A stretch of 64,000 bases of DNA, taken from contig JAQWSK010000004.1 in NCBI GenBank assembly GCA_029243245.1, forward strand, positions 186,001 to 250,000, in the 5' to 3' direction. The stretch is from Flavobacteriaceae bacterium. GTDB taxonomy: Bacteria > Bacteroidota > Bacteroidia > Flavobacteriales > Flavobacteriaceae. Shown here piece by piece: positions 3,601 through 56,473 of this stretch (within the stretch, counting starts at the first letter, position 1; the number at the start of each line of letters is the position of its first letter). Below the pieces are notes generated by a model. The model had not been told where the DNA came from. It saw only the letters and a list, made by a program, of their open reading frames with translations, and did no database searches. Made by a program: the position numbers and the translations under genes.

Positions 3601-4936
3601 TAATATTTTCGATACTAAAGCCAATTTTAAAGCCAAATTTTCTCATTTAAACTTTAAAGATTGGAATATGGATTTGTTACTTGATTCCAATGGTCTTTTA
3701 TTACTAAATAAAAAAGAAACTCCTGATGTTTTATTTTATGGAGAGGGATTTTTGTCAGGTGATATTTCAATGAAAGGTCCAACCAAAAACCCACAACTTG
3801 AATTAGTCGGTTTAACGGCACCTGGAACTTCAATTAAAATTCCATGGAAAGACACCCAAGAAATTTCTGATATTTCGTTTATAACATTTGTAGATAAAAA
3901 ATCAAAATCAAAAAGTACTAAATTAAAAAAATTAGAACCACTAAATAATGAAGTTAGAGGTTTAGAAATGTTTTTTGAATTAGATATAAACCCTGACGCA
4001 GCTGTTAAAATAGTAATTGATCAATCTTCTGGAAGTTATTTAAGCGGGAGAGGGGTTGGTAAATTATTGATGGAAACCAATACGAAAGGAAAATTTAATA
4101 TGTGGGGAGATTTTTCAACTTCTGATGGCATTTATAATTTTAAAAATCTTGGCTTATTAGATAAAAAATTTAATTTAGAGCCTGGAGGTACAATTGTTTG
4201 GGATGGTAATCCTTTAGGGGCTCAAATGAATTTAAACGCCTTATATCAGGTTCCTGGAGGGGCAAATCCAGCTATATTATTAGATAATCCTAATTTCAAT
4301 AAAAAAATTCCAACTGAAGTAGGCATTCATTTACAAGGAAATTTATTAAAGCCGGATAATCCAATTTTTGAAATATTTTTTCCAAACACTAGTGGAACAG
4401 TAGTTTCTGAAATTAATTATCGTTTAGCTGATCCTCAAAGAAGTCAACTTCAAGCAATTTCACTTCTTTCTCAAGGTGTATTTATTAATGATGTTAGTGT
4501 TTCTGTTCAAGGTATTACAAACAATTTGTATGAAAAAGCTTCAGATATATTTACATCTATTATAGGTGATAATGATGAGAAGTTGAAGGTGGGGATTAAT
4601 TATCTTCAAGGTGATAGAAACCCTGATTTAGATATTTTCTCAGAAGACAGGTTAGGATTGACTCTTTCAACTCAGGTAAGTGATAAAATTCTTATAAATG
4701 GAAAAATTGGTGTTCCTGTTGGTGGAGTTAATGAGACTTTAATAGTTGGTGATGTTCAAATTGATTTCATTTTAAATGAAGACGGATCACTTAAAGCCAA
4801 AGTCTTTAATAGAGAAAACGAATTTCGCTATATAGGCGATAAGCTTGGATATACTCAAGGTATGGGTATTTCATATAATGTTGATTTTAATAATTTCAAA
4901 GAGTTAATTAATAAAATAATCAAAGAAGCACAATAG
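683..4936 (+). CDS. tamB: TamB-like (DUF490) translocation/assembly module protein
   Basis: A very long protein (1417 residues from the TTG at 683). Its body is repetitive beta-strand sequence of the AsmA/TamB type, and its last ~450 residues match the DUF490/TamB domain (for example GKFNMWGDFSTSDGIYNF, GTIVWDGNPLGAQMNLNA, then a C-terminal VGINYLQGD...LSTQVSDKILINGKIGVPVGG). TamB-type proteins are anchored in the inner membrane and span the periplasm, supporting outer-membrane protein or lipid delivery. The open frame continues upstream to a stop at 617; codons 629-682 encode IKRRYKILTGLFIALILLLL, a basic patch plus hydrophobic anchor. The TTG at 683 would delete most of this anchor. No ATG, GTG or TTG precedes it, so the true start may be ATT at 629 or 623. 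It is divergent from tsaD. Confidence 0.85.
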   Translation: MLMIMHLLNTGSIQEKVIQSLTNKISEKYSVNISVNSSELSIEGGIILNDVLLNDHYNDTLIYINNLKTNLKSLDKILDGNVRFTNLQLKGLILNIKKYSNDQINSLQFFLNLVKSKRDTTKFLPIISTSFLKIQNSEIRLPNISESYKIFNLKSNNFIAGPDFVETSLIDGNFEAFRIKNFSFKSDSFKYSGCSVLIDDYILTSDQGKISGNLKYESLAGNVFDYFEKPKIYSNLTISNFKPAKIGMSKKIDPLLTVSANLDVVGTLDSINIKNGKFDFGFLKFEAELKLLNIFSEKENMFSGYVKTTNVVLSELKNNIKIPVSPIVDFKKHRIKKFYVTGNYSSNKWNINADIETDFGDFKTKLLNSKIDKLISNSILVDVKNLNLSKLYNSFPEGFISSNINIKLKNDLFDWKIREGYFTTSNFAPIQFSLNGLGNFKKGNLSLSSSNGLEVPFSQFEYDFSSKVKKLSSVINLESYNLSSINNKIGGGKAILSGVFKSKIEGESIDKSSIILTVQNLQLQHKNGLLNSSDLYLNSFNKNGVRNFSIINSSWLSGEAIGRFDLSKTKILINNALSETFPIIPKLNLSKPQEMKFDFTLSKELVNILNTDIESTENFNLVGYLNSDEYKSYLDIEVPFFQYQDFFGQGLKANINNKSSNRGSEFVINKFIYKNSNFGEFLLGSKRKKNKLSINVQLKPLLEKGNGFNLSFDVSRLGNNMNVLNLTDSSIIYNNGNWNLKELENEPIIYDYKNNSIEFNNFKLTSENSEIKVKGFYKGLRNFDIDLSFHKVNLNHLVKHNENFTTEGLFNSSWRIKRTSMDNSMKGFLSSSEVYINNVFIGEIDLNINGNTELNSYAIDWNLVNNNINTFSGTGNFILDNNSSKLDLDILFSKFDISFSSPLAKSMSNIRGYLDGGLNIWGDFSNLQNSGLISLTDSGFSIPYLNIDYSLTSTTELNFYNNILEILPTELSDNIFDTKANFKAKFSHLNFKDWNMDLLLDSNGLLLLNKKETPDVLFYGEGFLSGDISMKGPTKNPQLELVGLTAPGTSIKIPWKDTQEISDISFITFVDKKSKSKSTKLKKLEPLNNEVRGLEMFFELDINPDAAVKIVIDQSSGSYLSGRGVGKLLMETNTKGKFNMWGDFSTSDGIYNFKNLGLLDKKFNLEPGGTIVWDGNPLGAQMNLNALYQVPGGANPAILLDNPNFNKKIPTEVGIHLQGNLLKPDNPIFEIFFPNTSGTVVSEINYRLADPQRSQLQAISLLSQGVFINDVSVSVQGITNNLYEKASDIFTSIIGDNDEKLKVGINYLQGDRNPDLDIFSEDRLGLTLSTQVSDKILINGKIGVPVGGVNETLIVGDVQIDFILNEDGSLKAKVFNRENEFRYIGDKLGYTQGMGISYNVDFNNFKELINKIIKEAQ

Positions 4937-50215: not shown

Positions 50216-51052
50216 ATGAAAAAATTATTATTAGTTATATTATTTACACCATTTTTAAATTTTGCTCAGGTGCTTTCCCCGCAACCAAGTCCTTCCGCAG
50301 TAATTAATCAAATTATTGGCCTTACAGACGTCAAAATTGAATATTCAAGACCAGCTATGCGAGGTAGGGAAATAATGGGTAATTTAGTTCCTTATGGAGA
50401 ATTATGGAGAACAGGCGCTAATGCAAATACAAAAATTAGTTTTTCTGATCCAGTAGCTATTGCTGGGATTGTTGTTCCAAAGGGAGAATATGCGTTATAT
50501 ACTCGTCCAGGAAAACAAATGTGGGAGGTGTTTTTTTACAAAAAAAGTGATAATTGGGCTCTTCCAAAAGTTTGGGATGCAAATCAAATTGCTGTAGTTT
50601 CTGAGTCTAAAGTATCAAAGACTAGTGAGACGATAGAGTCTTTTACAATTCAAATTGAAAATATTACAAATGATAAGGCTGAGTTGACAATTTCATGGGA
50701 GAACTCTAAAGTAAAAACTTTAATAGAAGTTCCAACCCATCAAAAAACTATGACTTCAATTGATAAAACATTATCTGGAAATCCAAATGCTTCAGATTAT
50801 TATCGTTCTGCTGTTTATTATTTAAATAGAGAATTGGATCTTAAGCAAGCAAAAAACTGGATGGAGATCGCTATTGAAAAAGGGAATGATAAATATTTTC
50901 ATTTAAGACAATACTCATTAATTTTAGCCAGCTTAGGTGAAAAAGATGCAGCGATTAAAATTGCAAAAAAATCATATGAATTAGCTGAAATTGCTGGAAA
51001 TAAAGATTATTTAAAAATGAATAAAGAATCAATTGAAGAATGGTCTAAATAA
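50216..51052 (+). CDS. DUF2911 domain exported protein
   Basis: 278 residues with a signal peptide (MKKLLLVILFTPFLNFAQ). Residues ~25-165 are DUF2911: IEYSRPAMRGREIMGNLVPYGELWRTGANANTKISF and VPKGEYALYTRPGKQMWEVFFYKKSDNWALP. The C-terminal ~100 residues are helical with TPR-like repeats (NWMEIAIEKGNDKYFHLRQYSLILASLGEKDAAIKIAKKSYELA). DUF2911 is common in Bacteroidota with no known function. A single gene between a decayed SDR gene and the symporter. Confidence 0.9.
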   Translation: MKKLLLVILFTPFLNFAQVLSPQPSPSAVINQIIGLTDVKIEYSRPAMRGREIMGNLVPYGELWRTGANANTKISFSDPVAIAGIVVPKGEYALYTRPGKQMWEVFFYKKSDNWALPKVWDANQIAVVSESKVSKTSETIESFTIQIENITNDKAELTISWENSKVKTLIEVPTHQKTMTSIDKTLSGNPNASDYYRSAVYYLNRELDLKQAKNWMEIAIEKGNDKYFHLRQYSLILASLGEKDAAIKIAKKSYELAEIAGNKDYLKMNKESIEEWSK

Positions 51053-51101: not shown

Positions 51102-52784
51102 TTATATGATTTTTACGGATTTAATTTTCTGTAATAGATATGCAATAGAGATTGTTAAAAAAGATCCAATGACATTTAGCCATAGATATCCAAATAAGTC
51201 AAATAAATATAGATCAATTAAGTAGCAAGATATTACTATTAATTCTGAAATTAATGCTGCATAAAATATGGGATTGCTTCCAATATTTTTAAAGAATATT
51301 GCCACTAAAAAAATACCTAGAATTGTGCCATAAAAAATTGACCCTATTATATTAACGAGTTGAATAAGATTTTCGAACAGACTGCCAAAAGATGCAAAAA
51401 TAATAGCTATTACACCCCAAATTAGAGTAAATAATTTAGCCATATTTACATAGTGGCTTGAGGATAGGTTAGGGGTGTGTCTTTTATATATGTCAATCAA
51501 AGTTGTGGCTGAAAGAGCATTTAATTCAGAGGCTGTTGAGCTCATTGCAGCTGCAAATATAACAGCAAGTAACAATCCTATTATTCCATTTGGTAAATGA
51601 TTGATAATAAATGTTATAAAAACATAATCTTTATCATTAGTTGAAGCGTTTTTATTACTTAATAAAATTAAATTATTTACTTTATTTCTTTGTTCAATAT
51701 TTAATGATTCAAGTTTAGAGTAGTCATTTTTGAGTTGATTGTTTTCAAAAAAAGATGGATTTAATAGAATTTGATGTTTCTCGTTCTGGACAAGCTCATA
51801 CTCCTTTTCCAGCTCTTCAAATTGGTTAGCGAAATTTGATTTCTCGATTTCAGTAATATTCCTTGGATTAAAATGAATTGGAGGAGTTTCATATTGGTAA
51901 AAAACAAATACCATAACGCCAAGTAATAAAATAAAAAATTGAAATGGAACTTTAAGGAAGCCGTTCATTAATAAACCCATTTGACTTTCTTTTAATGATT
52001 TACCAGAAAGATATCTTTGAACTTGACTTTGATCTGTTCCAAAATATGAAAGAGCAAGGAATAGTCCACCAGTTATTCCACTCCAGAAAGTATACCTACT
52101 CTTAAAATCAAAGCTGAAATCTAATATATTTAATTTTTCATTATAATTAGCTAGCTTAAGCGCCTTGTTAAAATCAATATTTTCAGGCATTTTAAGAAGA
52201 GCTATGTAAAATGCAGATATTAAACCAATTATAATTATGATCATTTGTTGTTTTTGCGTCACATTTACAGCATTTGTCCCTCCAATTAAAGTATAAAAGA
52301 TGACTATGAATCCAATTATCACGACCAAAACTTTTAAATTCCAGCCAAGAGCAACACTTAAAATTATTGCAGGAGCATATATAGTAATCCCTGCAGCTAG
52401 GCCTCTTTGAATCAAAAATAAAACAGCAGTTAATGTTCTAGTTTTTAGGTCGAATCTATTTTCTAAAAATTCATAAGCTGTGTAAACATTTAGCTTTTGA
52501 TATAGAGGTAAAAAAAACAGGCATATAATTAGCATAGCAAAAGGAAGTCCAAAATAAAACTGAACAAAACCCATTCCTTCATTGTAAGCTTGTCCTGGTG
52601 TAGAAAGAAATGTTATTGCACTTGCTTGAGTAGCCATAACGGATAAACCTACAGTCCACCACCTAGCTTTATTATCACCCTTTAGATAAGATTTAATAGA
52701 GGAATGATCTTGATTTTTCCATATCCCATAGACAGCTATAAACACAAGAGTTCCAATTAAAAAACACCAATCTAAAGTATTCAT
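51102..52784 (-). CDS. sodium:solute symporter (SSS family)
   Basis: 560 residues with about 13 hydrophobic helices. WWTVGLSVMATQASAITFLSTPGQAY and later SYFGTDQSQVQRYLSGKSLKES are SSS signatures. A hydrophilic, partly coiled-coil insert (about 295-375) splits the transmembrane core. It imports a sugar, amino acid or similar solute with Na+; the PIG-L gene upstream in the same transcript suggests an amino sugar or acetylated sugar as substrate, an inference only. Its ATG shares its A with the stop codon of a 33-residue upstream microprotein gene (TAATG). Confidence 0.88.
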   Translation of the reverse strand: MNTLDWCFLIGTLVFIAVYGIWKNQDHSSIKSYLKGDNKARWWTVGLSVMATQASAITFLSTPGQAYNEGMGFVQFYFGLPFAMLIICLFFLPLYQKLNVYTAYEFLENRFDLKTRTLTAVLFLIQRGLAAGITIYAPAIILSVALGWNLKVLVVIIGFIVIFYTLIGGTNAVNVTQKQQMIIIIIGLISAFYIALLKMPENIDFNKALKLANYNEKLNILDFSFDFKSRYTFWSGITGGLFLALSYFGTDQSQVQRYLSGKSLKESQMGLLMNGFLKVPFQFFILLLGVMVFVFYQYETPPIHFNPRNITEIEKSNFANQFEELEKEYELVQNEKHQILLNPSFFENNQLKNDYSKLESLNIEQRNKVNNLILLSNKNASTNDKDYVFITFIINHLPNGIIGLLLAVIFAAAMSSTASELNALSATTLIDIYKRHTPNLSSSHYVNMAKLFTLIWGVIAIIFASFGSLFENLIQLVNIIGSIFYGTILGIFLVAIFFKNIGSNPIFYAALISELIVISCYLIDLYLFDLFGYLWLNVIGSFLTISIAYLLQKIKSVKII

Positions 52785-52885
52785 TAGTTATATTTTTCCA
52801 TAATTAAATAAAATATAAACCAGTAAAAGATATTTGCTCCAATTAGCAGAGCATATGTCATATTTTTAATTTTATTCATGTCCAT
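52784..52885 (-). CDS. 33-residue single-helix microprotein between PIG-L and symporter genes
   Basis: By hand on the minus strand: ATG at 52883-52885 to TAA at 52784-52786, sequence MDMNKIKNMTYALLIGANIF, then an aromatic hydrophobic stretch, ending MEKYN. It has one clear membrane helix. The start lies within the last codons of the PIG-L gene and its stop overlaps the symporter ATG as TAATG, so all three could be translationally coupled. No family recognised; DUF4212-type small SSS subunits are larger (~80-90 residues) and two-helix. Confidence 0.62.
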   Translation of the reverse strand: MDMNKIKNMTYALLIGANIFYWFIFYLIMEKYN

Positions 52886-55374: not shown

Positions 55375-55950
55375 CTAAAGTAGTCCTTTTATTTGATTTA
55401 AAACTTCTGTAACAGGTAGGCCCACAACATTTGTATAGCTTCCATTTATTTTTGAAATACTTAACAAACCAATTGATTCTTGAATTGCATATGCCCCAGC
55501 CTTATCAAATGGGTTTTCATTTGATAAGTAATTTTCTATAATAGATTCATTTAATTCTTCGAATGTGACTTCAGTAGTTACGTCAATACATGAATAATTT
55601 GAATAAGTTAAGAAACCAACTGCAGTTATTACTTTATGAGTTTTATTTGATAATGAGTATAACATTTTTCTCGCATCTTCTAATGAACATGGTTTGCCTA
55701 GACATTTATTTTCATGCCACACAATAGTATCTGCTGTAATTACAATCTGATTTTTATTTATTGTTTTCTTAAAAGGGTTAGCTTTTAAGCCAGCAATATA
55801 TCTAGCTATAGATACATCTTTTAGGTGAATGGGGTAATTTTCTTTTACATTAATCGTTTTAATTGAAAACGGAAAATTAAATAGTTCAAAAAAAGCTTTT
55901 CTTCGAGGAGAATTTGAAGCTAGAATGATTTCTTTATTAAAATTTTTCAC
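55375..55950 (-). CDS. maf: Maf-like nucleoside triphosphate pyrophosphatase
   Basis: 191 residues from a GTG at 55948-55950, giving MKNFNKEIILASNSPRRKAFF, the standard Maf start. The frame is open further upstream to an ATG at 56055, but that would overlap the KdsC-like gene by 98 bases and add residues unlike Maf. IVITADTIVWHENKCLGKP and FDKAGAYAIQESIGLLSISKINGSYTNVVGLP are Maf signatures. Maf hydrolyses dTTP/UTP or modified nucleotides. It follows the KdsC-like gene by 7 bases. Confidence 0.9.
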   Translation of the reverse strand: MKNFNKEIILASNSPRRKAFFELFNFPFSIKTINVKENYPIHLKDVSIARYIAGLKANPFKKTINKNQIVITADTIVWHENKCLGKPCSLEDARKMLYSLSNKTHKVITAVGFLTYSNYSCIDVTTEVTFEELNESIIENYLSNENPFDKAGAYAIQESIGLLSISKINGSYTNVVGLPVTEVLNQIKGLL

Positions 55951-55957
55951 CACTTGA

Positions 55958-56473
55958 TCAATTACTAAATCTCCATTTATTTTGAACTCTAAGAACTTGT
56001 TCAATAATCTCTCTAACACAACCTTGGCCACCATTTTTGTGTGAGATATAATCAACTATGTTTTTAACATCAGAAGCGGCATCTTGGGGACATGTGCTCA
56101 CACCAATTTTTTTCATTACTGGAATATCAGGCATATCATCTCCCATATAAAGTATTTCATCTGGAGATAAATCGTACTTTTTTAATAAATCAGTATAAGA
56201 ATTAATTTTATTATGAGAACCTAGATAAATATCATTTATTCCTAATGACTTCAATCTATTTTTTACGGCATCATTTGTTCCTCCTGAAATTATAGAAATT
56301 TTAAAACCATTATCAATAGCATATTTTATTGCGAAACCATCTTTTGTGTCTACCAATCGTAACATTCCTCCATCTGATGTAATTAGAATTTTACCATCTG
56401 TTAAAACACCATCTACATCAAAGATAAATGTGGTTATGTTTTTTAATCTAATTTTATAATTTTCTTTATTCAT
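55958..56473 (-). CDS. KdsC-like HAD phosphatase
   Basis: 171 residues, capless HAD of the KdsC type. TTFIFDVDGVLTDGKI is motif I with the two Asp, SIISGG motif II, and YMGDDMPDIPVMKKIGVSTCPQDA the motif IV segment typical of 3-deoxy-D-manno-octulosonate 8-phosphate phosphatase. It would release free KDO for LPS inner core, matching lptD in the same genome. Its start overlaps the upstream DUF2520 gene by 8 bases. Confidence 0.85.
   Translation of the reverse strand: MNKENYKIRLKNITTFIFDVDGVLTDGKILITSDGGMLRLVDTKDGFAIKYAIDNGFKISIISGGTNDAVKNRLKSLGINDIYLGSHNKINSYTDLLKKYDLSPDEILYMGDDMPDIPVMKKIGVSTCPQDAASDVKNIVDYISHKNGGQGCVREIIEQVLRVQNKWRFSN

Follow-up and report, generated by a model that had tools for sequence, protein, structure and literature searches.

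Organization of the locus

The window, i.e., the whole stretch of 64,000 nucleotides of Flavobacteriaceae DNA that was analyzed, encodes a PIG-L family deacetylase and a sodium:solute symporter of the SSS family, and a frame of 33 codons lies between the two genes (Table 1). Pfam assigns the flanking genes to PIG-L (PF02585) and SSF (PF00474, E 2.1e-43). The small frame reads MDMNKIKNMTYALLIGANIFYWFIFYLIMEKYN*, with the stop codon TAA at 52784-52786 on the minus strand. A first-pass annotation of this DNA had described a 33-residue frame in this place, which begins inside the end of the PIG-L gene and shares the A of its stop codon with the symporter ATG, and this arrangement was confirmed. 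A second in-frame ATG at 52879 would give rise to a protein of 31 residues; the position of the first ATG (52885) recurs in the related loci L009, L013 and L014 and that of the second in L009, L010 and apparently also in L011.

Table 1. Features of the microprotein locus (positions in the window).
Feature	Position	Strand	Description
SSS sodium:solute symporter, 560 aa	51102..52784	-	PF00474; modeled with 13 membrane helices and a helical hairpin
TAATG overlap	52784..52784	-	final base of the microprotein stop codon doubles as the A of the symporter ATG
Microprotein gene, 33 aa	52784..52885	-	predicted single N-in transmembrane helix; 31 aa from the ATG at 52879
PIG-L/microprotein overlap, 14 nt	52872..52885	-	3' end of the PIG-L gene, 5' end of the microprotein gene
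PIG-L family deacetylase, 823 aa	52872..55343	-	PF02585; gene upstream of the microprotein

A conserved microprotein under purifying selection

AlphaFold2 predicts one helix for the microprotein, spanning residues 3-32 with a mean pLDDT of 89.3, which agrees with the single membrane helix proposed in the first pass. The flank N-terminal of the helix contains more lysine and arginine residues than the C-terminal flank in 302 of 327 sequences, an equal number in 24 and fewer in 1, and based on this charge bias the helix is predicted to be oriented with the N-terminus inside and the C-terminus outside.

Relatives were sampled via the symporter, taking the best 80 of 565 loci, mostly named Flavobacteriaceae, together with 7 loci of the genus, and inspection of the printed frames revealed a small frame of like kind in the same slot in 87/87. 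Within the genus, the symporter is present in 7/7 genomes, the window's own included, and the microprotein in 6/6 of the other genomes examined. For the core codons outside the overlaps, compared among relatives with symporters that are 75-96% identical, 110 independent pairs yielded a pS of 0.677, a pN of 0.176, a pN/pS of 0.261 (bootstrap 0.237-0.281) and a dN/dS of 0.115. Across 327 aligned sequences a tryptophan is conserved in 277, a tyrosine in 322 and a phenylalanine in 280; in the window copy the tyrosine is residue 11 and the phenylalanine residue 25, but a lysine replaces the conserved tryptophan. The same tyrosine and phenylalanine occur in 48/48 aligned class-wide sequences. The microprotein frame is a real gene under purifying selection. 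That it is a chance open frame might be suspected from its shortness and from the many other frames of 25-45 residues in the region, but its recurrence in all 87 loci and beside 328/354 distinct symporters (see below) and the low dN/dS leave this reading virtually no probability, and it was ruled out by conservation and selection.

The taxonomic reach was assessed with profile A1, built from 53 sequences, and with the wider profile A2. A1 matches 74/76 listed genomes of the window's family, 146/395 genomes at the order level at E<=0.1, many of the matches outside the family being weak and chance-like, and 34/395 genomes at the class level at E<=0.003. With A2, 163/395 genomes were matched at the class level at E<=0.02, weak matches counted, and 69/198 at the phylum level at E<=0.001, some of them outside the class. 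As judged from these sequence profiles, homologues of the microprotein extend to other classes of Bacteroidota.

Association with the symporter gene

At E<=1e-100, the symporter was found in 207/395 class genomes and in 177/199 family genomes. The loci fetched for the adjacency analysis are the better-scoring part of the symporter matches, plus the genus loci and the best 80 of 565. Among 290 distinct symporters found from the symporter alone, 266 have a microprotein homologue on their 5' side, called by HMM at a domain E-value below 0.05 calculated for 2000 sequences, and 274 when by-eye, split and relocated copies are added: five loci missed by the HMM have a divergent frame that is recognizable by eye (L222, L257, L286, L291, L372), one copy is split across contig ends (L224 with L302) and two genomes carry the microprotein elsewhere (L177, L187). 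A conserved short frame in front of SSS genes near PIG-L in Bacteroidota had been suggested as a check in the first-pass annotation and is borne out by the 266/290 symporters and by a PIG-L tail within 400 nt of the microprotein in 269/328 cases. The remaining 16 of the 290 symporters, 7 of them in one genus, apparently lack a microprotein, which therefore does not seem to be needed everywhere. In four of these loci (L151, L248, L288, L425) PIG-L is directly upstream of the symporter, and in the other 12 the fetched upstream stretch contains no PIG-L match. Loss of the frame between intact flanking genes, which the first pass had named as an argument against it, is thus seen in these four distant loci and in none of the six other genomes of the genus. 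L316 (2854-4134) and L317 (2624-3898), from a genus without the microprotein, show an extra gene between PIG-L and the symporter; L248 is from the same genus.

When profile-led loci are added, the microprotein lies beside 328/354 distinct symporters, with two further misses, L352, where the microprotein is present and the symporter appears broken, and L305, where the start is unclear. In L352 (3577-3828) the symporter frame seems to be broken just 3' of the intact microprotein, which could be an assembly error. Conversely, the loci found from the microprotein profile alone adjoin a symporter homologue in 30/30 and 23/23 cases. The microprotein stop overlaps or abuts the symporter start in 187/327 loci, lies 2-20 nt from it in 132 and further away in 8; the commonest spacing is a four-base overlap of the ATGA type (116/328). 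Small hydrophobic frames close to further SSS genes in four stretches of this genome (L002, L003, L006, L008) are by eye unlike the microprotein, and the plasmid records contain no symporter homologue at E<=1e-60. Natural fusions with the symporter were considered as well and rejected: five long frames matching the profile were read by eye as two membrane proteins of 635 residues, a ferredoxin-type membrane protein, a thioredoxin-like protein and a sensor-kinase-like protein, and no locus among them has a symporter or PIG-L match.

The two genes also go together in their presence. The two of 76 family genomes without a microprotein (G054, G202) are without a symporter at E<=1e-100, too. A search of 13 symporter-less Flavobacteriaceae genomes, i.e., 12 of the 22 symporter-less family genomes, mostly picked for completeness, and G054, yielded no plausible copy of the microprotein; the sole match (E 0.013) lies inside a frame of 227 residues and was taken as chance. 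The tie of the microprotein to the symporter, in place and in presence, is well supported.

The PIG-L neighbor is less constant in another class, in which the family f104 supplied 13 of the 20 loci fetched. In 12 of the f104 loci the microprotein lies 5' of a symporter that is 38-43% identical to the window's; 11 of these have no PIG-L match in the about 7-7.5 kb fetched, and one (L348) has a weak PIG-L match on the other strand. In L310, too, the microprotein is at the symporter, and the 7 kb fetched contain no match to PIG-L. The thirteenth f104 locus, L358 (microprotein at 3637-3753, minus strand), has no symporter match nearby; here, the microprotein is convergent with a gene that by eye resembles a DASS-type transporter. 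In two genomes of one genus, G505 and G594 (L300 6698-6832, L301 6812-6946), an intact microprotein stays with PIG-L and the symporter is on another contig, without the microprotein there.

Structure of the symporter and the position of TM13

The symporter model (pLDDT 92.6, 108 sequences) comprises 13 membrane helices, TM0-TM12, by our own count from the DSSP line with one long element split in two, and a well-modeled helical hairpin of residues about 299-384 (window 51633-51890) between TM7 and TM8, which we take to be on the periplasmic side in accordance with SSS topology. The fold matches SiaT, NIS, SMCT1 and SGLT, and the best structural match among those listed is SiaT (5nva/5nv9; VIA Z 46.3, rmsd 2.1 over 462 residues, 26% identity). 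Aligned with SGLT2, the model covers this 672-residue protein as far as about residue 550, and with the residue numbers that we assume for TM13 of SGLT2 the symporter therefore seems to end before this helix. As SiaT was aligned over nearly its whole chain, the absence of TM13 is not special to the window's symporter. The microprotein may bear some resemblance to the C-terminus of SGLT1.

In published work on SGLT2 (PMC10203128, PMC10803289), the loop between TM12 and TM13, named IL6, is intracellular, so TM13 runs from inside to outside, as predicted for the microprotein, and this shared orientation led to the reading of the microprotein as a detached TM13. At E<=10, the profiles A1 and A2 retrieved neither SGLT TM13 nor another PDB chain, the query being too short for a strong negative, and a term search on TM13 in PMC9616851 was likewise negative.

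Co-evolution analysis of microprotein and symporter resulted in top z values of 8.8, 7.2 and 6.3, compared to maxima of 5.0-6.7 in six permutations. Plausible-looking pairs connect microprotein residue 14 with symporter residues 276 and 90, residue 24 with 196 and residue 29 with 209, near TM2, TM7 and the end of TM5. The PIG-L tail, presumed to have no contact with the symporter, was used as control; in the control set the pairs of tail and symporter scored 7.4, 7.1 and 7.0 and those of microprotein and symporter only 6.2. With an alphabet of eight groups mostly other pairs came to the top. As the PIG-L control scores as high, co-evolution was not counted as evidence. In view of this co-evolution result, and because SiaT, like other related symporters, matches in the absence of TM13, we treat the placement of the microprotein at the TM13 position as hypothetical.

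Known families and comparable systems

No convincing Pfam or NCBIfam match was obtained for the microprotein or its homologues, the best family matches (E about 0.001-0.01) being spread over unrelated families. The window microprotein has no Pfam match, including DUF4212, at E<=1; DUF4212, DUF485, DUF997 and DUF3311 are not among the families listed at E<=0.1 for the 53 members of A1, nor at E<=1 among 25 of the 29 families listed for 48 members of A2, and HMMER filters can hide weak matches in such family-profile scans. DUF4212, DUF485, DUF997 and DUF3311 proteins are small two-helix membrane proteins of about 60-110 residues that are encoded beside bacterial SSS genes. The microprotein resembles them in its place beside an SSS gene and differs in having 33 residues and one predicted helix; the remark of the first-pass annotation that it is smaller than DUF4212 subunits holds for the sizes given here, and no DUF4212 match appears among the families listed. 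Open-access searches did not retrieve a description of the microprotein family, and term searches in PMC10903887 and PMC11364881 gave nothing on it.

MAP17 (PDZK1IP1), an auxiliary subunit of human SGLT2 and SGLT1, is longer than 33 residues, is encoded apart from its symporter and has an orientation opposite to that predicted for the microprotein. It shares with the microprotein a single membrane helix, which is predicted in the latter case, and an SSS/SLC5 partner, whereas no sequence relation was found by profile with this short query. MAP17 is reported to bind to TM13 of SGLT2 in a less-mobile region (PMC10203128) and to be needed for uptake by SGLT2 and for its surface level, not for SGLT1 (PMC10203128, PMC10803289). 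In contrast, the window's symporter seems to be without a TM13.

KdpF is a single-helix small protein of the Kdp pump. CydX and AcrZ are described as small single helices as well, which act as parts or modulators of the cytochrome bd and AcrB complexes. The proposed role of the microprotein is analogous, i.e., a small single helix in a larger membrane complex, yet the partners of these three proteins are not SSS symporters, and the families listed by the NCBIfam scans of the microprotein include none of KdpF, CydX and AcrZ. SiaT, a sodium/sialic acid symporter, is the closest structure to the window's symporter; in contrast to the arrangement proposed here, the title of its structure entry names no small subunit. 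Single-helix transporter subunits are thus already known, and their occurrence with a bacterial SSS symporter seems to be a new variation.

A putative single-helix subunit of the symporter

We propose that the microprotein serves the adjacent SSS sodium symporter as its dedicated small subunit with a single helix, acting as a stabilizing or folding helix in the membrane, and assign to this reading a probability of about 0.72; it is probably a missing piece of one kind of sodium symporter in many Bacteroidota. The first-pass annotation had suggested coupling and a small subunit or regulator, of which the tie to the symporter stands (266/290 symporters, 187/327 overlapping or abutting, 13 symporter-less genomes), and binding or regulation is what we infer from it. 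Ribosomes finishing PIG-L probably reinitiate on the microprotein and subsequently on the symporter via the overlapping stop and start codons, by which both proteins would be made together and could be assembled at a fixed ratio. The helix would insert with its N-terminus inside, as the charge bias suggests, and most likely pack against the symporter's lipid-facing surface, where it may stabilize the symporter or help it to fold, by analogy with MAP17 on SGLT2. The packing site could perhaps be the place at which SGLT has TM13, which is the weakest step of this mechanism. In its full form, i.e., a split transporter with the SGLT-type TM13 as a separate 33-residue protein, a two-chain branch of Bacteroidota SSS symporters and a counterpart of SGLT2-MAP17, this idea is rather doubtful.

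That the microprotein stop overlaps or abuts the start of the symporter in 187/327 loci would also be expected of a translated leader frame that delivers ribosomes to the symporter and encodes an inert peptide. This is improbable, given the selection on the amino acids (dN/dS 0.115), the same tyrosine and phenylalanine in 48/48 class-wide sequences and the intact copies without a following symporter in G505, G594 and L358; that the microprotein is kept apart from the symporter in the two genomes speaks against a mere leader. These same two genomes, in which it stays with PIG-L, and the PIG-L tail within 400 nt in 269/328 fit a PIG-L protein as the true partner, which the microprotein might for instance anchor or help to assemble, the symporter being a mere neighbor. 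We consider this just as improbable as the leader, because 11 f104 loci and L310 have the microprotein at the symporter and no PIG-L match in the fetched approximately 7 kb, and no plausible copy was found by searching for the microprotein alone in the 13 symporter-less genomes.

Other single-helix microproteins modulate their partners, as described for AcrZ with AcrB, and the microprotein might accordingly be a conditional regulator of the symporter, such as an inhibitor or a protease adaptor; its tight packing with the symporter gene and its regular presence fit a stoichiometric part better, which makes the regulator slightly less probable still than the leader or PIG-L readings. If the microprotein is indeed a subunit of the symporter, an unnamed, phylum-spanning protein family would be added that is easily missed because it is tiny, and this SSS branch would work with a single-helix partner. 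Transport studies on such symporters expressed alone could then mislead, and the pair would offer a simple bacterial system in which the contribution of MAP17 and other single-helix subunits to SLC5-type transporters could be studied.

Further genes at the locus

A DUF2911 gene (window 50216-51052) adjoins the symporter, and frames that by eye resemble DUF2911 are also present in L313, L316 and L317, so it may be a frequent neighbor at this locus. A Maf-like frame (55375-56055, TTG start) overlaps a HAD phosphatase frame (55958-56473) by 98 nt (window 55958-56055), and the true Maf start may be further downstream than the listed TTG.
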